Shown here in pieces: positions 3,430 through 22,215 of a stretch of 64,000 nt of DNA. Within the stretch, counting starts at the first letter, position 1, and each line of letters opens with the position of its first letter. Position numbers and translations under genes: made by a program. This DNA is from Gammaproteobacteria bacterium (GTDB lineage Bacteria; Pseudomonadota; Gammaproteobacteria; Enterobacterales; Alteromonadaceae). The notes beneath the pieces were generated by a model. It did no database searches. It worked only from the letters and a program-made list of their open reading frames with translations, and was not told the origin of the DNA. The DNA is taken from contig JAHJZX010000021.1 in assembly GCA_018826295.1 (NCBI GenBank), positions 124,001 through 188,000 on the forward strand, written 5' to 3'.

Positions 3430-4950
3430 TCAGCTTGTTACAACATCACTGAGGTGATAAATGCTGTTACGCCCGGCTGCTTTGGCCTGATACAAGGCTT
3501 TGTCTGCTTTGGCAATCAGTCTGTCAGCGCTATGATCCTGGGTGGGCCAAATACTGCTAAAGCCTACACTTAGCGTCAATAGTGAGCTGACTGCGGATTG
3601 TTGATGCATTATGGCCAGGGCTTTGAGGTCGCGCTGGATACGCTTTGCAATAGTGTGGCATTCTTTTTCACCGGCACCCGGTAAAATAATGGCAAATTCT
3701 TCGCCGCCATAACGCGCTGCCAGCTCGCCCTGACGGCGGCATTGCTGTTGCAGCAGTTGGGCAACCTGCTGCAGGGCCTGATCACCAGCCTGATGGCCGT
3801 AGTGGTCGTTGTAAGCTTTAAAGAAGTCGATATCCAGCATCAGTAATGCAAGTTGTTGTTGATGGCGGCTGGCGCGTTGCAGCTCCTGCTCCAGGTGCTG
3901 ATCAAAATGGCGCCGGTTGGCAATGCCGGTCAATCCATCCTGATGTGCCTGTTGCTGCAGTTGAGCATTGGCCTGTTGCAGTTGTTCAGTAACTTGTTGC
4001 AGCGACTGGCGGTAGCGGACATTCTGCAGGGCATTGGCCAGCATATCACCTACCAGTTTCATGCGGCGTAAGTCATTACTGGTCCAGTTGCGCTGACGTG
4101 CCACCATATCGCAGCCGACAAAACCCAGCAACTTGTCTTCGGCCTGCATAGCGCAGCACAACACCGATTGAATGTCTTCTGCTTCAAATTCTTGTTTTTC
4201 TGCGCTGGCTTGCGGCGGCAGTTTAGCCACTTCATCAACGGCAAATACCAAATCCTGTTTAATAATATTAAAAAAATACGGCAGTGCCGGCTGCGGAATT
4301 TGTTGCAGGTTGTCTTTGTGTGCGCGTATACCTTCGCGCACCCATTCATGGGTATTGCTCATCATGCTGCCGTCGCTATTAAAAAGAAAAATATAGCTGC
4401 GATCAGCATGACAAAATTCACCTACCGCTGCCAATGCATCCTCGATATGTTGGTCCAGCTTGCTGGCTTTGACATTAATCAGTTCAGTAGAGATAAGTGA
4501 AATTAACTTGTCAAACGCCAACGCCTCCTGCAGCTCAGCCAGCAGTTGGTTACTGTTTGACGCCGCAGGTAAACGTTGCTGTGTCAGGCTACTGCTGCAT
4601 AAACTGATCACTACGCTGCTGTGCAAGGTAAACGATAAGGAGATAACCTTGCTTTGTAACATCAGTTTTTGCCCGGCAATGCTAAGCGGCTGACACAGCT
4701 CGGTGCCACTAAGCGCCAGCAATAACGGGTTTTGCAGTAAGCTAAAGGGCTGATCGCTATCGGCAGAATTTAACGGTAACTGCTGAATATCACTAAGTGA
4801 TAACAGGTTTTGTTGCGCCGGTAAGCCAAATAGCCTGAGCGCGGCCTGATTGGCGAAAACGGCTTTTCTGGCCTGCTCTTTGTAAAGCACGGCCAAAGGC
4901 AGTACATCAATTAGTGCCCAGAAGTGCGGGGCAGAGGTTTGTTCAGTCAT
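3430..4950 (-). CDS. GAF-GGDEF diguanylate cyclase
   Basis: This 506-residue cytoplasmic signalling protein would make c-di-GMP from two GTP. Its order is a PAS-like N terminus (about 5-110), a GAF domain (about 155-310, C-H-A-D-R-S-Y-I-F), a short glutamine-rich coiled coil (about 315-337) and a C-terminal GGDEF domain. The catalytic motif is RYGGEEF, with GGEEF at 415-419, and substrate-site residues such as DIDFFKAYND are present. The usual inhibitory RxxD upstream reads R-Q-G-E, so product inhibition may be weak. ATG at 4950 is chosen over an upstream TTG at 4956; neither has a strong ribosome site. It stands alone, convergent to yjbH. Confidence 0.88.
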   Translation of the reverse strand: MTEQTSAPHFWALIDVLPLAVLYKEQARKAVFANQAALRLFGLPAQQNLLSLSDIQQLPLNSADSDQPFSLLQNPLLLALSGTELCQPLSIAGQKLMLQSKVISLSFTLHSSVVISLCSSSLTQQRLPAASNSNQLLAELQEALAFDKLISLISTELINVKASKLDQHIEDALAAVGEFCHADRSYIFLFNSDGSMMSNTHEWVREGIRAHKDNLQQIPQPALPYFFNIIKQDLVFAVDEVAKLPPQASAEKQEFEAEDIQSVLCCAMQAEDKLLGFVGCDMVARQRNWTSNDLRRMKLVGDMLANALQNVRYRQSLQQVTEQLQQANAQLQQQAHQDGLTGIANRRHFDQHLEQELQRASRHQQQLALLMLDIDFFKAYNDHYGHQAGDQALQQVAQLLQQQCRRQGELAARYGGEEFAIILPGAGEKECHTIAKRIQRDLKALAIMHQQSAVSSLLTLSVGFSSIWPTQDHSADRLIAKADKALYQAKAAGRNSIYHLSDVVTS

Positions 4951-9469: not shown

Positions 9470-10126
9470 TTATTTTATCACCTGGGTACCGGCGCTGGTG
9501 CCAACCAGCACCATATCGGCAGCACGCTGCGCAAAAATGCCGTTGGTTACCACACCGACAATATTATTAATGTGCTGTTCCAGTTTTAGCGGGTGGCTAA
9601 TGGCTAAATCATGCACATCCAGAATGACGTTACCATTGTCGGTGGTAACCCCATCCCGCAGCACCGGCCGGCCGCCCAGTTTTGTCAGCTCGCGCGCAAC
9701 ATAACTGCTGGCCATTGGGATAACTTCCACCGGCAACGGAAATTTACCCAGCACGTCGACCTGTTTGCTTTGGTCTACGATACAGATAAACGTATCGGCG
9801 ACGGCGGCAACAATTTTTTCCCGGGTAAGGGCGGCACCACCGCCTTTTATCATATGTTTTTCTGCGTTAATTTCATCGGCACCATCAACGTACACACTAA
9901 AGCTGTCGATACTGTTTAAATCCAGCACCTCTATACCCAGCGCTTTGAGCTTTGCTGTCGATTGTACCGAGCTGGACACGGCGCCTTTAATCTCGTGCTT
10001 AATGCTGGCCAGCGCATCGATAAAATGATTGACGGTCGAACCGGTGCCAACACCTACAACAGTGTGGCGTGGTACATATTCTAAAGCGGCCCAGGCAGCG
10101 TTTTTTTTCATTTCATCTTGTGTCAT
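9470..10126 (-). CDS. rpiA: Ribose-5-phosphate isomerase A
   Basis: This 218-residue enzyme interconverts ribose 5-phosphate and ribulose 5-phosphate in the pentose phosphate pathway. Family motifs are V-G-V-G-T-G-S-T-V near residue 24, S-S-x-x-[10 protein letters not shown] and the [12 protein letters not shown] catalytic block. Length is normal. The rpiA-serA neighbourhood with ygfA/6S RNA and ubiH/I nearby is the common gammaproteobacterial arrangement. Confidence 0.96.
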
Positions 10127-16268: not shown

Positions 16269-19160
16269 ATGACCAACTCCGCTGTGAAAACCCTGTCGCA
16301 ACTTGCGAACCACGAAGAATTTATTCAGCGCCATATTGGCCCTGACGCTGCCGAAACCGCCGCTATGTTAAGCGAGCTGGGCGTTGACAGCATGGAAACG
16401 CTGATTGCACAAACCATTCCGGCGGATATCCGCCTGCCTAAGCCATTGTCGACAGGCCAGGCCCGCTCTGAAGCCGATGCACTGGCCCACTTAAAACAAG
16501 TGGCCAGCAAGAACAAGATGTTTAAATCTTACATTGGTATGGGCTATCACCCAACGTTAACGCCAAATGTTATTTTGCGTAATGTGCTGGAAAACCCGGG
16601 TTGGTATACGGCTTATACACCGTATCAGCCAGAAATTGCCCAGGGCCGCTTAGAAGCCTTGTTAAACTTCCAAACGCTGACACTGGATTTAACCGGTATG
16701 GAGCTGGCCAGCGCCTCGTTGCTGGATGAAGCGACTGCTGCTGCCGAAGCCATGGCACTGGCCAAACGGGTAACCAAAAGCAAATCTAACCTGTATTTTA
16801 TTGCCGACGATGTGCATCCACAAACTATCGACGTGGTAAAAACCCGGGCAGAAATGTTTGGTTTTGACATCGTAGTGGGTAAGGCGGCAGAAGCCGACAG
16901 CCATGATGTGTTTGGTGCCTTAATTCAGTACCCAACCACCAACGGCGATATTCGTAACGACAGCGCCTTAATTGCTGCGCTGCAGGCGAAAAAAGCTATC
17001 GTTGCCGTGGCAACCGATCCGATGGCTCTGATGCTGTTAAAATCTCCTGGTCAGTTAGGTGCCGACGTGGTGCTGGGCTCGGCGCAGCGCTTTGGCGTAC
17101 CTATGGCCTTTGGTGGCCCACACGCTGCGTTTTTTGCTACCCGCGATGCCTATAAGCGTTCTATGCCGGGCCGTATTATCGGGGTATCCAAAGATCGCCG
17201 TGGTAACAGCGCCCTGCGTATGGCGATGCAAACCCGCGAGCAGCATATCCGCCGCGAAAAAGCCAACTCTAACATCTGTACTGCCCAGGTTTTACTGGCC
17301 AACATCGCTTCGTTCTACGCCGTATACCACGGTCCGCAAGGCCTGAAAAACATCGCTCAGCGTATTCACCGCAGTGCTGATATTTTCGCAGCCGGTTTAA
17401 CGGCTAAAGGCGTTAAACTGCAAAACCAACACTGGTTTGATACGGTAAGCTTTAGTGTGGCTGATCGCGCTGCTGTTATCAGCCGTGCTTTAGCTGCCGG
17501 TGTAAACCTGCGCACCGATATGGCCGACTGTCTGGCCGTTAGCTTTAACGAAGCCAGCAACAGTGCGGATATTGCCCAGTTGTTTGATATCGTGCTGGGT
17601 ACCGGGCATGGCTTAAGCGTCGATGCACTGGACAGTGCTATTGTAGCCAACGGCAGCAAGTCTATTCCGGCTGATTTAGCCCGTACCGACAGCGTGCTGG
17701 GCCACCCGGTGTTTAACCAGTATCACAGTGAAACTGAGATGCTGCGTTATATCAAGAAGCTGGAAAACAAAGACTTAGCCTTAAACCATTCGATGATCTC
17801 GTTAGGTTCATGCACCATGAAGCTAAACGCCACCGCCGAGATGATCCCGATCACCTGGCCGGAATTTGCCAGCTTGCACCCGTTCGTGCCGCGTGATCAG
17901 GCTGATGGTTACTACGAAATGATTACCGAGCTGGGCGACTGGCTGGTAAACATCACCGGCTATGACAATATCTCTATGCAGCCAAACTCGGGTGCACAGG
18001 GCGAATACGCCGGTTTAGTGGCAATCCGTAAGTATCATGAAAGCCGTGGCGATGCGCACCGTAATATCTGCTTAATTCCGGTATCGGCGCACGGTACTAA
18101 CCCGGCAACAGCAGCGATGGCCAGCTTTGACGTGGTACTGGTAGAGTGCGACAAGCGCGGCAATATCGATATGAGCGATCTAAAAGCCAAAGCGGCTGAG
18201 GTCGGCGATCGCTTAGCGGCTATCATGGTTACCTATCCGTCAACCCACGGTGTATTTGAAGAAAGTATCCGTGAGCTGTGCGACGTCGTACACAGCTATG
18301 GCGGCCAGGTGTACATGGACGGCGCCAACATGAACGCGCAGGTAGGGGTAACCTCACCTGGCTTTATCGGCTCAGACGTTTCGCACTTAAACCTGCACAA
18401 AACCTTCTGTATTCCACACGGCGGCGGCGGCCCGGGCATGGGTCCTATTGGCGTGAAAAGCCATTTAGCGCCATTCCTGCCCAACCATGCTGTGGTTAAA
18501 ATTGACGGCACCGGCGCAAGCAACGGTGCTGTATCGGCCGCGCCTTTTGGCAGCGCCGGCATTTTGCCAATCAGCTGGATGTATATTGCCATGATGGGCG
18601 CTGACGGCTTAAAACAAGCTACCGAATACGCCATTTTAAATGCTAACTATATGGCGAAAAAACTCGACCCGTTATTCCCGGTACTGTACCGCGGCACTAA
18701 CGGCTGGGTAGCGCACGAATGTATTATCGACATTCGTCCGTTAAAAGAAGCCAGCGGCATTACCGAGATGGACATTGCCAAGCGTTTAATGGACTTTGGT
18801 TACCACTCGCCAACAATGAGCTTCCCGGTAGCCGGCACCCTGATGATTGAGCCAACAGAATCAGAAAGCAAAGCCGAGCTGGATAAGTTTATTGAAGCGA
18901 TGAGCACCATCCGTGCCGAAATTGCTAAGGTGCAATCTGGTGAGTGGACAGTGGACAACAACCCACTGGCGTTCGCACCTCACACCATGCAAGATATTTT
19001 CGACCCGGCATGGGATCGCGCCTACGAGCGCCAGTACGCTGCCTTCCCGGTAGCCTACGTGGCAGAGAACAAGTTCTGGCCAACCGTCAGCCGTATTGAC
19101 GATGTTTACGGTGACCGTAACCTGATCTGCGCCTGCCCAAGCCCGGAAGCGTATCGCTAA
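16269..19160 (+). CDS. gcvP: Glycine dehydrogenase (decarboxylating), P protein
   Basis: The 963-residue PLP enzyme decarboxylates glycine and loads the H protein lipoyl arm. Both fused halves are present. The PLP lysine is K711 in the L-N-L-H-K-T-F block, followed by the glycine-rich [10 protein letters not shown] loop. Length matches E. coli GcvP (957). The last 46 codons and the terminator are duplicated, in diverged form, 1,229 bases downstream, on the far side of a Tae4/Tai4 pair. AGGACA precedes the start. Confidence 0.96.
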
Positions 19161-19217
19161 GCGAGTAGCGTTTAAGTAGTAACAAACAAAACCCCGGTCA
19201 GCGCGCCGGGGTTTTTT
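19023..19217 (+). repeat. gcvP 3'-end direct repeat, copy 1 (within intact gcvP)
   Basis: These 195 bases, the last 45 codons of gcvP plus stop and terminator, align without gaps to 20252-20446. The best-matching core begins at 19063. The copies differ mostly at synonymous or conservative sites towards the 3' end and more strongly at the left edge. Confidence 0.85.
19189..19217 (+). terminator. Terminator of gcvTHP
   Basis: ACCCCGG and CCGGGGT form a GC-rich stem around TCAGCGCG, followed by a T run. A diverged copy of this terminator follows the second gcvP tail at 20417-20446. Confidence 0.88.
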
Positions 19218-19334
19218 ATCAGCCGGCCTTAAAACCTGCCAATGTTTTATGTATAAATAATGTGAATTAAAGGTTTTAATTACGATGCCGATAGGGCAGA
19301 ATTTCCTATGATGTTTATCAGCTAGAGCCTTCGT

Positions 19335-19724
19335 ATGCAATTTCGCCTATTTGTAGTTACAACCTCCTTGTTTAGTGCGCTGGTAAGCTGCGCTGCATTG
19401 GGTACTGCAGAGCATAGTGCCAGAGTGCCGCTCGATCGTCTGCAAGCCTTAGCAAACGGCAACCCTGTTACACCTTTACCACCGGCATTTTCAGCGCAGG
19501 CAAAAAAAGGTATCGCCAGTGATCAGCTTGCCATGTATCTGGCAGGTGTTATCGACAGTGGCGAAGGGCAAAGCTGGTGCGTAGCGGCATCTGGTTTGCC
19601 ACCTCATGAAGTTAATCAGCAGCTGTTGGCGGAGATACAACGTGATTTGGAACAGAAGAAATCTACCGCTAACTCCGCAGTATTGCTGGCCAGCAAACTG
19701 AAAACTTTATTTCCGTGTAACTAA
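19335..19724 (+). CDS. Rap1a/Tai-family T6SS amidase immunity protein
   Basis: The 129-residue protein has a signal peptide and a Rap1a/Tai-like domain: A-M-Y-L-A-G-V-I-D near residue 66, W-C-V (C82), a P-x-x-V-x-x-Q block, and a C-terminal L-F-P-C (C128), the usual disulfide pair. The leader ends L-V-S-C (C19), which fits a lipobox, so it may be lipidated rather than freely periplasmic. It sits 18 bases upstream of a Tae4-like amidase and would neutralise that enzyme in the periplasm. The ribosome site is weak. No T6SS structural gene is in the window. Confidence 0.78.
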   Translation: MQFRLFVVTTSLFSALVSCAALGTAEHSARVPLDRLQALANGNPVTPLPPAFSAQAKKGIASDQLAMYLAGVIDSGEGQSWCVAASGLPPHEVNQQLLAEIQRDLEQKKSTANSAVLLASKLKTLFPCN

Positions 19725-19742
19725 CTTCAGTAAGGATACGTT

Positions 19743-20216
19743 ATGTCAGTTATCAAATACCAAGCCGTTGCAGATGCGTACGAAAAATACAATGTTTATA
19801 GCACCAGCGAACTTTATCAATTACTTGGCTGGGATGATCTAATCGGCCGGCCAGAGTGGGCTAATACTTGTGCCGTAAGAATGAGCCTGGCACTGATTGA
19901 GGCCGGCATGACAGTATCTGGCCGCGTACAGGTTAAGAAAGGTGATCTTAAAGGAAAATGGATCGAGCCGGGACAAAACCGTTTATCAGACTGGCTGATC
20001 CGCCACCTTGGCGAGCCGGAGGTTTTTCCTTTTGATACTAGCAGCGCTGCAGGCCCACAATCGCTGTACGGCAAAAAGGGCATAGTGTCGTTTATGCGTA
20101 TTCCCAGTTACTCGGGTGGCCATATCGACTTGCTGCAACCCTCCAACGACTACCTAACTTGCAGCCGCAGTTGTTATTTCACCGCTGATGAAGTGCGGTT
20201 TTGGCAGCTAAACTAG
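19743..20216 (+). CDS. Tae4-family type VI secretion amidase effector
   Basis: This 157-residue protein fits the Tae4 family, DL-endopeptidase-type amidases that cut peptidoglycan stem peptides in rival cells. The catalytic cysteine is C43 in N-T-C-A-V-R-M-S, the histidine is H127 in G-G-H-I-D-L, with D129 beside it. C140 and C144 resemble the family's C-terminal disulfide. The K-K-G-I-V-S-F block precedes the histidine as in Salmonella Tae4. There is no signal peptide, as expected for a T6SS cargo. GTAAGGAT supports the start. It is paired with the immunity gene just upstream, and both are flanked by the gcvP tail duplication. Confidence 0.85.
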
Positions 20217-20251
20217 AGGCGTATTTATAACGCCCTTTGACTTTGATTATT

Positions 20252-20446
20252 CACGAGCGCCGTATGCCACCTTCCCCAGTAACCTTCGAGACAGAGAACA
20301 AGTTCTGGCCAACGGTAAGCTGTGTCGACGACGTGTACGGTGACCGTAACCTTAACTGCGCCTGCCCAAGCCCGGAAGCGTATCGCTAAACGGTTAGTTT
20401 TTATGCAGTAACAATAAAACCCCGGCCAGCGTGCCGGAGTTTTTTT
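20252..20446 (+). pseudogene. gcvP 3'-end fragment, copy 2, with its terminator
   Basis: Reading from 20252 to the TAA at 20387-20389, 32 of 45 codons match the gcvP C terminus, including E-N-K-F-W-P-T-V-S and the final [10 protein letters not shown]. It has no start of its own. A diverged terminator follows at the same distance as in copy 1 (57 bases after the stop), so the repeat includes the transcription end. It marks the right boundary of the Tae4/Tai4 insertion. The divergence implies an old event or import of a foreign gcvP end. Confidence 0.9.
20417..20446 (+). terminator. Terminator after the gcvP tail copy
   Basis: AACCCCGG and CCGGAGTT pair around CCAGCGTG, with one mismatch, followed by a run of seven T. 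It is the diverged counterpart of the gcvP terminator and would end tai4-tae4 transcription. Confidence 0.75.
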
Positions 20447-20533: not shown

Positions 20534-20956
20534 ATGAAAGTTGTGGTAGATACCAATGTGCTGATCGCCGCTTTACTCGGTGGGAAAGGGCCTAATAGAG
20601 CAGTTATCCGATACTGTTTAACGGGTCGGTTGCTGCCTCAGTTAGCTGCAGCGTTGTATTTTGAATATGAAGATGTGTTTGAGCGGCAGACTGTATTAAC
20701 GCTATGTAAGTTGAACAGTGAGCAACGGCAGCTGTTTTTAGATGCCTTTTTATCTGTGTGTCAGTGGAATCAGCTTTATTTTCGCTGGCGTCCTAATTTG
20801 CGGGATGAAGGCGATAATCACCTGGTTGAACTTGCTGTAGCAAGTAATGCCAGATATTTGATAACGAACAACTTCAAAGACTTTCGTTTTGCTGAGTTAC
20901 GGTTTCCGGCTTTAGAAGTGATTAAGCCTGAACAGATTTTGGAGGTACTAAGATGA
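20534..20956 (+). CDS. PIN-domain toxin (putative ribonuclease)
   Basis: The 140-residue protein has the PIN layout of the COG1569 type: V-V-V-D-T-N-V-L-I-A-A-L at the N terminus (metal-binding Asp), an acidic E at the F-E-Y-E-D helix, D-E-G-D-N-H-L-V-E-L-A in the middle and a C-terminal L-I-T-N-N-x-K-D-F. PIN toxins cleave RNA, but the target is unknown. There is no clear ribosome site before the ATG, consistent with a leaderless message. The stop overlaps the antitoxin start as ATGA. The toxin gene precedes the antitoxin gene. Confidence 0.85.
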   Translation: MKVVVDTNVLIAALLGGKGPNRAVIRYCLTGRLLPQLAAALYFEYEDVFERQTVLTLCKLNSEQRQLFLDAFLSVCQWNQLYFRWRPNLRDEGDNHLVELAVASNARYLITNNFKDFRFAELRFPALEVIKPEQILEVLR

Positions 20957-21177
20957 CAACTCTTACAATCAGAATGCCGGACGACAAAGCCAGCAGGCTT
21001 AAAGCTCTGGCGCAAAGCCGCAATATCAGTGTTAATAAGCTTATAGAAGAGCTCTCTACCATTGCACTGACCGAATATGATGCCCAAGTCAGGTTTGAGG
21101 TACGTGCAGCGCGAGCTAACGCAACTCAGGGGCTGGCGCTGCTAGATGAGTTAGAAAAGGTGGAGTTGGCTGATTAA
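20953..21177 (+). CDS. Ribbon-helix-helix (CopG/Arc-like) antitoxin
   Basis: This 74-residue protein has the ribbon T-L-T-I-R-M-P-D at its N terminus, then two short helices with S-R-N-I-S-V-N-K-L-I-E-E-L, followed by an acidic tail likely to wrap the PIN toxin. GGAGG at 20941-20945 gives it a far better ribosome site than the toxin, which fits excess antitoxin. It overlaps the toxin by four bases and probably represses the palindromic promoter upstream. Confidence 0.85.
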   Translation: MTTLTIRMPDDKASRLKALAQSRNISVNKLIEELSTIALTEYDAQVRFEVRAARANATQGLALLDELEKVELAD

Positions 21178-21200
21178 GCGTTCGGCGAGTGCTAATCAAG

Positions 21201-21251
21201 CAGTGTTTAAAGCTGCCGCAGGTTTCTTTGCTGGAGTAGGGCAGATGCATC
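21201..21251 (-). pseudogene. creA 3'-end fragment (second copy)
   Basis: These 51 bases match 44 of 51 in the 3' part of the intact creA at 21608-21658. Read on the minus strand they give P-Y-S-S-K-E-T-C-G-S-F-K-H, against S-Y-S-T-K-E-T-S-G-S-F-K-H in creA. There is no start or complete reading frame. It lies just past the decayed yhaV, so prlF-yhaV remains are bracketed by creA tails, as the Tae4 pair is by gcvP tails. Confidence 0.78.
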
Positions 21252-21264
21252 GCGGAGTAGTTTT

Positions 21265-21473
21265 CTAACGCGGGAGTTTTGCGCCTCTTGCTGCTGTTAG
21301 CAGCGCATCCCAATCATCCGGCGGATTGCCCGACTTAAGCATCTTTGCAAAAACTTTGTAAGCGCCGGTTTTACTGGCAAATGCCCGCTTATAAGTATCT
21401 GATACTGCTGTGCTAAAAGTGGATGGCTATACCGCGTCCAGCCGTTAACGACTACCGGAACTTGATCAGCCAA
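21265..21473 (-). pseudogene. yhaV: Decayed YhaV-type toxin gene
   Basis: On the minus strand a frame from TTG at 21473 gives V-V-V-N-G-W-T-R-Y-S-H-P-L, like the YhaV N terminus. After a frame change near 21413 another frame gives Y-K-V-F-A-K-M-L-K-S-G-N-P-P-D-D-W-D-A-L, like the YhaV C terminus, ending in TAG at 21265. The middle of the family, about 80 residues, is missing. This is therefore a deleted and frameshifted remnant of the PrlF-YhaV RNase toxin. Confidence 0.75.
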
Positions 21474-21558: not shown

Positions 21559-22011
21559 TCAGCGCGCTACATAAGCCTCTGTTCCCCACAGTGGCACGGT
21601 AGATAAGCTGTGTTTAAAGCTACCAGAGGTTTCTTTGGTGGAGTAGGACAGATACATCAGGGTTTGGTTTTCGGCATCAAAAATACGGCGTATTTTCATT
21701 GTTTTAAAAAAGATGCTTTTTGATTTGCTAAACAGCACTTCACCGTTTTTGCTTTTGTCTATGCTGGCAATCATTGCTGCAGTAATGGGGCCGGTTTGGC
21801 GGCAGGCGATAGAGCTGTCGGATGGATCAGAGAAGTCCAGATTGGCTTCGATACTGGATACATGGCAGGTAACGCCTGTTACCACCGGGTCGACCATAGC
21901 ATCGAGCTTGATATCCTTGGTAGTAAACACGCCCAGCGATACATCACCAACTTCGTTTTTATTACAGCCGCTAAGCATCAGTAGTAGTAATACAGCGTAA
22001 ATTGGGCGCAT
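21559..22011 (-). CDS. creA: CreA-family lipoprotein
   Basis: The 150-residue protein has CreA motifs: V-T-C-H-V-S near residue 47, S-I-A-C-R-Q-T-G-P-I, G-E-V-L-F and a C-terminal R-I-F-D-A-E-N-Q-T-L-M-Y-L-S-Y-S. The N terminus L-M-L-S-G-C-N is a lipobox, so it is probably lipidated, unlike the plain signal peptide of E. coli CreA. ATG at 22011 has AAAGGAG six bases upstream; an open frame back to 22191 is rejected. The last residues (G-T-E-A-Y-V-A-R) are unusual and may result from the toxin-antitoxin insertion beside the stop. Function is unknown. Confidence 0.85.
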   Translation of the reverse strand: MRPIYAVLLLLMLSGCNKNEVGDVSLGVFTTKDIKLDAMVDPVVTGVTCHVSSIEANLDFSDPSDSSIACRQTGPITAAMIASIDKSKNGEVLFSKSKSIFFKTMKIRRIFDAENQTLMYLSYSTKETSGSFKHSLSTVPLWGTEAYVAR

Positions 22012-22215
22012 GGTGGGGGCTCCTTTGGTTAAGTCTGTCGGTACAACTAATAACGCCATACTGCCATGTTGTGTGCTGACAAAAAAGCCAAACCACAATA
22101 GCGCAGACTTTATTTTTGATGCTGGCTTGTTTATTGTCTGGATTTGAATGGGATAAGTAACTTTGTGCAGTAAAAGCCTGATAAGATTCAACTATCTGCA
22201 CAGATAAGGTAAACA

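Follow-up and report, generated by a model that had tools for sequence, protein, structure and literature searches.

By what route do small weapon and antidote genes spread, and how do they accumulate behind core genes, where no integrase or transposase is visible? This is not well explained, and the question is raised by a 64,000-nucleotide stretch of DNA (hereafter the window) from a gammaproteobacterium of the family Alteromonadaceae (assembly GCA_018826295.1, contig JAHJZX010000021.1, positions 124,001 to 188,000). Here a predicted effector-immunity pair of the type VI secretion system (T6SS) lies between two copies of the 3' end of gcvP. A preliminary description of the window had proposed that an insertion rebuilt the end of gcvP. 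We analyzed this locus together with those of related genomes, and consider it probable that the pair is a horizontally acquired T6SS cassette that was added behind gcvP by homology-anchored recombination. The single event of the preliminary description is one case of a recurrent pattern.

The window genome (G000) is a 4.57-Mb draft of 89 contigs, and coordinates are window positions. The genus set comprised 31 genomes, including Rheinheimera and Arsukibacterium, with one genome per species, as draft contigs. The named relatives are Rheinheimera nanhaiensis (G012), R. baltica (G015) and Arsukibacterium (G008 and G028). Up to 20 kb behind gcvP were taken from all 31 genomes; the contigs end early in G022, G008, G015, G004 and others.

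Results

The gcvP gene (16269–19160, plus strand; Pfam GDC-P and GcvP2_C) is an intact open reading frame (ORF) of 963 amino acids, and its 3' end forms the left bracket of the pair. The native last 45 codons, the stop codon and the terminator (copy 1, 19023–19217, plus strand) recur at 20252–20446 on the same strand. We read this second tail and terminator, copy 2, as the old tail of the gene, presumably displaced. At an ungapped offset, the two segments of 195 nucleotides (nt) share 147 of 195 bases and 32 of 45 residues (33 of 46 with the stop), and the residue count is the one given in the preliminary description. A direct-repeat search returned 149 nt at 84% (19046–19194 and 20275–20423) with a spacing of 1,229, and a terminator repeat (88%) with a spacing of 1,228. 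The recurrence had been described as gap-free at an offset of 1,229; it holds, with one base shifted ahead of the terminator, so the match is not strictly gap-free. A terminator-like hairpin is present in both copies, in agreement with the earlier statement that copy 2 has its own terminator. In the hairpin scan, copy 2 appears on both strands and copy 1 just on the minus strand; on its plus strand, copy 1 reads CCCCGG...CCGGGGTTTTTT. A BLAST search of the genome found the repeat at 84% (query 165–358, E 2.5e-52). Controls further exclude a chance repeat: five codon-shuffled sets and the reversed sequence each gave 0 matches. With 12-nt seeds, the whole window contained two families of direct repeats of at least 45 nt within 15 kb: the gcvP tail, and a duplicated creA 3' end in the same interval (21198–21265 and 21605–21672, 82%).

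According to the ORF list and Pfam, the effector-immunity pair is all that is encoded between the two tails, and the earlier remark that no integrase is visible holds for this insert. A leader (19218–19334, plus strand) runs from the gcvP terminator to the immunity gene and resembles, by alignment, the leader behind native gcvP in G015, G021 and G028. The effector gene (19743–20216, plus strand) encodes 157 amino acids and belongs to the Tae4 family (PF14113, 55.2 bits, cut-off 27). Its product matches Ssp1 in the PDB (4bi3, E 1.6e-32) and contains the cysteine and histidine contexts NTCAVRMS and GGHIDL. C43 aligns with C50 of Ssp1, the residue altered in 4bi4, and H127 corresponds to the conserved histidine of the Tae4/Ssp1 family, which we take to be catalytic. 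The adjoining immunity gene (19335–19724, plus strand) encodes 129 amino acids with a hydrophobic N-terminus and belongs to the Rap1a family (PF18602, 37 bits, cut-off 27.7). The pair had been called Tae4/Tai-like. The Tae4 part stands; for the immunity protein no Tai4 model matched in the same Pfam scan, though in the PDB Tai4 entries rank first (6ijf, E 4e-6), followed by Rap1a (4bi8, E 0.0014). The pair is thus predicted to be a T6SS amidase effector of the Tae4/Ssp1 family with a Rap1a-type immunity gene. A hairpin directly after the effector stop (20218–20234, plus strand) is possibly its own terminator, and the tail copy starts just past it.

The T6SS sheath gene (PF05943) was found in the window genome, in each of the 8 genus genomes that had a Tae4 match and in 21 of 31 overall. 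It was not found in R. baltica, which has kept the immunity gene together with an effector that lacks about residues 46–135. Likewise, G021 and G006 have the immunity gene and no Tae4 match. In this small sample, retention of immunity without the effector fits a T6SS pair that keeps the antidote once the weapon is lost; the pattern was noticed rather than predicted.

The interval downstream of gcvP varies in most of the 31 genomes. In G002, G007 and G008, about 50 nt and an antitoxin gene follow the native gcvP terminator. The same 50 nt and antitoxin follow copy 2 in the window genome and in R. baltica, with a PIN gene in between, and they also follow the tail copy of G014, whose cargo differs. 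From +50 to +130 past the stop, identity to copy 2 was 0.895 for G007, 0.887 for G008 and 0.855 for G002, and at most 0.75 for every other native sequence. For the tail copy of G014, the corresponding identities to G007, G008 and G002 were 0.975, 0.969 and 0.95, versus 0.77 for others. The fetched regions of G002 and G007 contain no gcvP-tail piece besides the native one, and from their sequences we regard these two as clean empty sites. The preliminary description had pointed to relatives as the place to look for such single-tail sites. Their native terminators are followed by the stretch found downstream of copy 2, which supports its proposal that an insertion rebuilt the gcvP end.

In the window, this downstream stretch carries what appears to be an older resident module: a toxin-like PIN_3 domain protein (20534–20956, plus strand; PF13470) and a ribbon-helix-helix, antitoxin-like partner (20953–21177, plus strand; Pfam matches below the cut-offs). 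A homologue of the partner comes next behind native gcvP in G002, G007 and G008. None of these three genomes has the PIN gene, and the resident module has therefore changed since.

R. nanhaiensis shares with the window genome both the pair and the effector-to-tail joint. There, a HigB-like toxin and a helix-turn-helix partner come after the tail copy; in G011 and, judging by sequence, in G009 this module stands behind native gcvP. The post-tail identity was highest to G009 (0.87; next 0.78). In this assembly gcvP and the pair lie on separate contigs, and both contig ends (end of G012:C19 and start of G012:C54; L024, L052) fall in the same terminator. The ends bear apparent inverted element ends, so the gap may be where an insertion sequence entered the terminator of gcvP.

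A profile of native tails found extra gcvP-tail pieces in 10 of the 31 genomes (G000, G001, G003, G012, G014, G015, G016, G027, G028 and G029) and 16 creA-tail pieces in 9 genomes; on reversed sequence it found 0 pieces of either gene. BLAST added terminator-only gcvP pieces in G008, G013 and G026. When gcvP was divided into segments, the five segments from -1750 to -300 matched 0 places, the segment from -300 to 0 matched 10, and that from 0 to +70 matched 11, one of which (G023) is a native terminator passing the filter. Five codon-shuffled gcvP controls gave 0 places in the same test. Matches near the native tail were dropped (those ending before base 1900 in the BLAST search and 1850 in the segment test), which hides very close copies and, in the segment test, also the copy of G012b. 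Nothing beyond roughly the final 250 nt of the gene is represented in the tail copies.

We also considered copy 2 as the remnant of a decayed complete second gcvP, a case that the preliminary description had raised against insertion. This candidate was rejected, as no segment upstream of the last 300 nt was copied.

At least five cargos were found between gcvP and its tail copies. G000, G012 and G015 carry the Rap1a-Tae4 pair, and G001 carries a second lineage of Tae4, accompanied by a small membrane protein. A regulator-cyclophilin-hydrolase set is present in G027 and G029, a symporter in G003 and G016, and proteins of no assigned family in G014. Other genes of the interval encode YhaV and ParD toxin-antitoxin parts, AAA/OLD-type proteins and Cap4-like proteins, as seen in a Pfam scan of 40 of the 121 listed interval gene representatives. 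The edges of the copied gcvP tails lie at about -136, -141, -71 to -75 and -248. Over the host genes compared, tail copies are 75–97% identical to their natives.

Copy 2 of the window scored best against its own native tail (157 bits), then against other members of the genus, and reached at most 84 bits against 27 genomes of other genera. The suggestion that a gcvP end from another genus came in with the cargo is not supported by these scores.

Tails of other genes bracket Tae4 pairs as well. Such pairs lie between lysS tails in R. nanhaiensis (80%, 168 nt), between lpdA tails in G008 (89%, 141 nt) and G028 (78%, about 80 nt), between mazG tails in G022 (96%, 70 nt) and between tails of an integrase-family gene in G028 (88%, 85 nt). 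The tail edges are at -114 for lysS, -78 for mazG and -87 for the integrase gene. Native lysS, lpdA and mazG tails are present in 31 of 31 genomes each. Leaving aside short terminator-like matches, long second copies occur in one genome for lysS, in one for mazG, and in G029, G008 and G028 for lpdA; a further lpdA-tail piece of 65 nt lies 8 kb off in G006. The lpdA tails of G029 (181 nt, 87%) flank a Phd/YefM-like antitoxin and a YafO toxin, and genes similar to this set sit behind the lpdA tail copy in G028. The 947 nt after the lpdA tail copy of G008 correspond, at 89%, to the sequence after native lpdA in G010 (1 of 29 relatives, 1.5 kb each). The lpdA units of G008 and G028 have a common cargo and different genes behind the copy. 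Thus lpdA repeats the logic of gcvP, with cargo added, the flank kept and similar cargo ahead of different flanks.

The genus set contains 15 Tae4 places (14 matches and the relic of R. baltica), of which 9 have tail or terminator copies on both sides. These are G000, G012:C54 (over two contigs), G015, G001 (on the left side a terminator piece of only 47 bits), G012:C55, G008:C3, G028:C4 (the 78% repeat of about 80 nt), G028:C5 and G022:C13. The other six are G007:C10, G012:C44, G028:C18, G008:C18 (contig ends), G026:C7 and the fragment G022:C2 (coordinates only). That every Tae4 pair is bracketed is ruled out by these six.

A repeat scan of 28 Tae4 loci, which left out the gcvP-linked places, G138 and G022:C2, found a bracketing repeat of any kind in 9, versus 13 of 166 control ORFs, the controls differing in kind (20-kb windows, two genomes). 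Four of the nine are gene tails (lysS, lpdA, mazG and integrase), and in L188 the repeat lies just behind a peptidase gene. The rest are attC-like (L191), tandem Tae4 copies (L182, L184) and a repeat that is far apart and hard to interpret (L187). The lpdA locus of G028 (L176) is not among the nine and was found separately. A long self-repeat was present in 4 of 20 control windows; judged by their ORFs, these look like an integron, a short tandem repeat, and repeats lying inside one gene or shared by similar genes, with no housekeeping tail around a cassette.

In L191 (G090, another family), the Rap1a-Tae4 pair lies between attC-like repeats (589–681 and 1760–1845) and is probably a true integron cassette. 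Genes reading like integron integrases were noted in L108 (14710–15678), where the gene matches PF00589, and in L128 (15547–16512). The Tae4 pair of L108 lies between the end of the integrase gene and a copy of that gene's tail.

Beyond the genus, a 64-residue gcvP tail served as query against 394 genomes of the order; 263 had a match (the window genus included). Besides the window genome, 11 genomes had at least two tail matches. All five taken from these 11 (G413, G043, G121, G177 and G208) have a repeated gcvP end, with second copies 0.3 to 18 kb from gcvP (L107, L110, L111, L112 and L113); they belong to other genera or families. In five of the other six (G075, G095, G129, G185 and G198) a second frame of about 955–966 residues points to a second gcvP. 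Between the gcvP ends, G208 and G043 have small lipoprotein-like genes that are similar by eye, and for a larger neighbour in G208 the pesticin-like match is weak and under the cut-off (E 0.022).

The opposite flank of the variable interval is creA (21559–22191, minus strand; PF05981, 147 bits, cut-off 25), which is convergent with gcvP. A creA 3'-end fragment, the same kind of scar, lies at 21196–21289 on the minus strand (nhmmer E 4.6e-13, region coordinates 3797–3890). Thus gcvP and creA, the two flanks, each have a duplicated tail inside the interval. Fragments of the creA 3' end are strewn through the interval in the window, G002, G007, G013, G014, G017, G024, G027 and G029, with up to four per genome (G013). 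In G007 (L059, oriented 9818–9991), the fetched region gave only the first part of creA (58 query residues) and, close by, two separate tail fragments; the gene is possibly broken or split in this genome.

Discussion

The repeats are seen directly, and so are empty as well as filled sites (at gcvP and lpdA), a joint that occurs with different neighbours, and several host genes and cargos. At gcvP and lpdA the resident flank is kept, a new joint lies on one side and a homologous gene end on the other. We propose that the incoming DNA would have come from a relative bearing a gcvP 3' end with Rap1a-Tae4 behind it. Its left side would pair with resident gcvP by homology, and its right side, just past the effector hairpin, would be joined illegitimately to resident gcvP about 137 nt before the stop. 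The gene would keep a complete 3' end, donor-type or chimaeric, and the cargo would be added, not swapped; the resident old tail, its terminator and the PIN/antitoxin module would be pushed behind the cargo. With homology on one side only, gene ends would therefore be copied, cargo added, the flank kept, the copies diverged and the host genes conserved. The 75–97% identity of the copies is what one would expect if one of the two had its origin in another strain or species.

Once a tail-cargo-tail unit exists, its second tail could serve as a short homology arm, so that the cassette could be placed before another resident module without deletion, as the case of R. nanhaiensis would illustrate. 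Since shared joints have different neighbours, illegitimate joining may have been needed only once per unit, the tail copies acting as arms thereafter. Natural transformation is a likely route of entry, and later shuffling would be RecA-dependent. The same process at creA, lpdA, lysS, mazG and other 3' ends would produce rows of effector-immunity and toxin-antitoxin modules. A wider generalization is more tentative, and we would put it at somewhat below an even chance: that 3' ends of housekeeping genes are integrase-free cassette slots, and that effector-immunity and toxin-antitoxin units travel flanked by diverged tails, their portable homology arms, with ordinary recombination adding modules in integron-like rows at many sites along the chromosome.

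Several observations weigh against the proposed recombination behind gcvP. G008 has the native junction of G002 and G007, but a terminator piece and the pair lie further on, and it is no clean empty site. In G028 the pair lies directly behind gcvP with no adjacent tail copy. A pair lacking a tail copy had been named earlier as evidence against insertion, and it is seen here in part; the arrangement of G028 fits a donor-like state, though it is no proof of one. In its coding part, copy 2 resembles its own native most in G000 (90%) and G012 (96.7%), but in G015 it is 84% identical to its own native and 96% to others; local duplication or gene conversion would also be compatible with this. The tails are short and the tail tree is weak; it holds genus rows only and so is no test of an origin in another genus. 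The native 3' untranslated stretch of G012 is cut by a contig end, and its low identity to copy 2 in the tree data is uninformative. Segment-by-segment identity along gcvP gave no clear donor or crossover. For the sequences after the lysS and mazG tail copies, 0 of 29 relatives matched in each case. The gcvP tail edges also cluster in part, at -135 to -141 for two different cargo lineages (G000/G012/G015 and G001/G028) and at -243 to -248 for two others (G014 and G003/G016). This may reflect a preferred site, or simply the points at which an edge can still be recognized after erosion. ComEC, found in 31 of 31 genomes, is shared with E. coli and does not show natural competence.

The clustered edges would also suit a site-specific integrase, acting in trans or since lost, that inserts at the 3' ends of genes and restores each from a tail it brings along, as phages 21 and e14 do at icd. 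The outcome would be alike, a rebuilt 3' end and a displaced tail; an integrase-family gene (PF00589) adjoins one Tae4 pair (L108), and the Pfam scan, covering 40 of the 121 representatives, leaves room for integrases elsewhere in the intervals. However, the window insert carries no integrase gene, related pairs lie behind five unrelated genes, the gcvP edges vary by more than 150 nt, the copies are diverged, unlike a fixed short core, and the integrase gene of L108 is itself the duplicated host gene. We therefore regard an integrase as unlikely. A somewhat smaller chance is given to spread mainly by homologous recombination among bracketed units, each formed once by a rare accident, with illegitimate joining minor thereafter. 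G000, G015 and G012 share a joint and differ downstream, and the lpdA units of G008 and G028 have a common cargo with different genes behind the copy, as such spread would have it; yet at least five gcvP cargo and joint combinations and four other host genes require separate founding joins. It differs from homology-anchored addition by a shift of emphasis more than by contradiction.

The closeness of copy 2 to its own native in G000 and G012 would be natural if the gcvP end, or the entire gene, had first been duplicated in tandem, with insertion and decay coming later. We consider this very improbable, given that no region has a gcvP copy upstream of about -250 and that in G002 and G007 the downstream flank is attached to a single tail. 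Least credible of all are repeats made as target duplications by an insertion sequence or another transposable element. Target duplications are short and identical at birth, whereas these repeats are diverged gene 3' ends of about 70–240 nt; an IS200-like transposase gene is present in the G028 interval, but no transposase is found in the window insert. Homology-anchored addition thus remains our preferred account.

The pattern points to a simple, integrase-free way of stacking competition genes. Gene-tail scars are a readable footprint of insertions and of where they were joined, one that can be sought in any genome. New effector-immunity and toxin-antitoxin modules are predicted to lie between two copies of a housekeeping tail, and with such scars the proposed route can be tested in a transformable laboratory strain.

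Among the literature search results, no account of housekeeping-tail scars around effector-immunity pairs was found. Of the known systems, integron gene cassettes line up as short cargo units behind one fixed point, and units of the window type do likewise. Unlike in integrons, the joint here is a gcvP coding tail with its terminator, and the window insert has no integron integrase. Prophage e14 and phage 21 at icd use an integrase with a fixed site; a diverged copy that they carry takes the place of some 50 codons at the 3' end, and the old tail ends up displaced. The diverged tail copy and the displaced old tail are similar here, whereas the window insert encodes no integrase. The pair itself resembles the Ssp1-Rap1a and Tae4-Tai4 pairs in sequence family, in the conserved cysteine and histidine and in the immunity gene alongside; it differs in its place between gcvP tails, and its activity is predicted from sequence.

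The closest comparison is with Vibrio cholerae. Kirchberger et al. 2017 (PMC5361080) describe sequentially displaced T6SS effector genes and immunity arrays, and propose homology-facilitated illegitimate recombination, called rare, as a possible route for effector-immunity insertion in Vibrio T6SS clusters. The V. cholerae insertions lie in T6SS clusters and displace effector genes, whereas the modules described here lie behind housekeeping genes, have duplicated tails as scars and include toxin-antitoxin cargo. In both cases modules appear to be added by recombination without specific sites, and the older genes are pushed downstream and kept.

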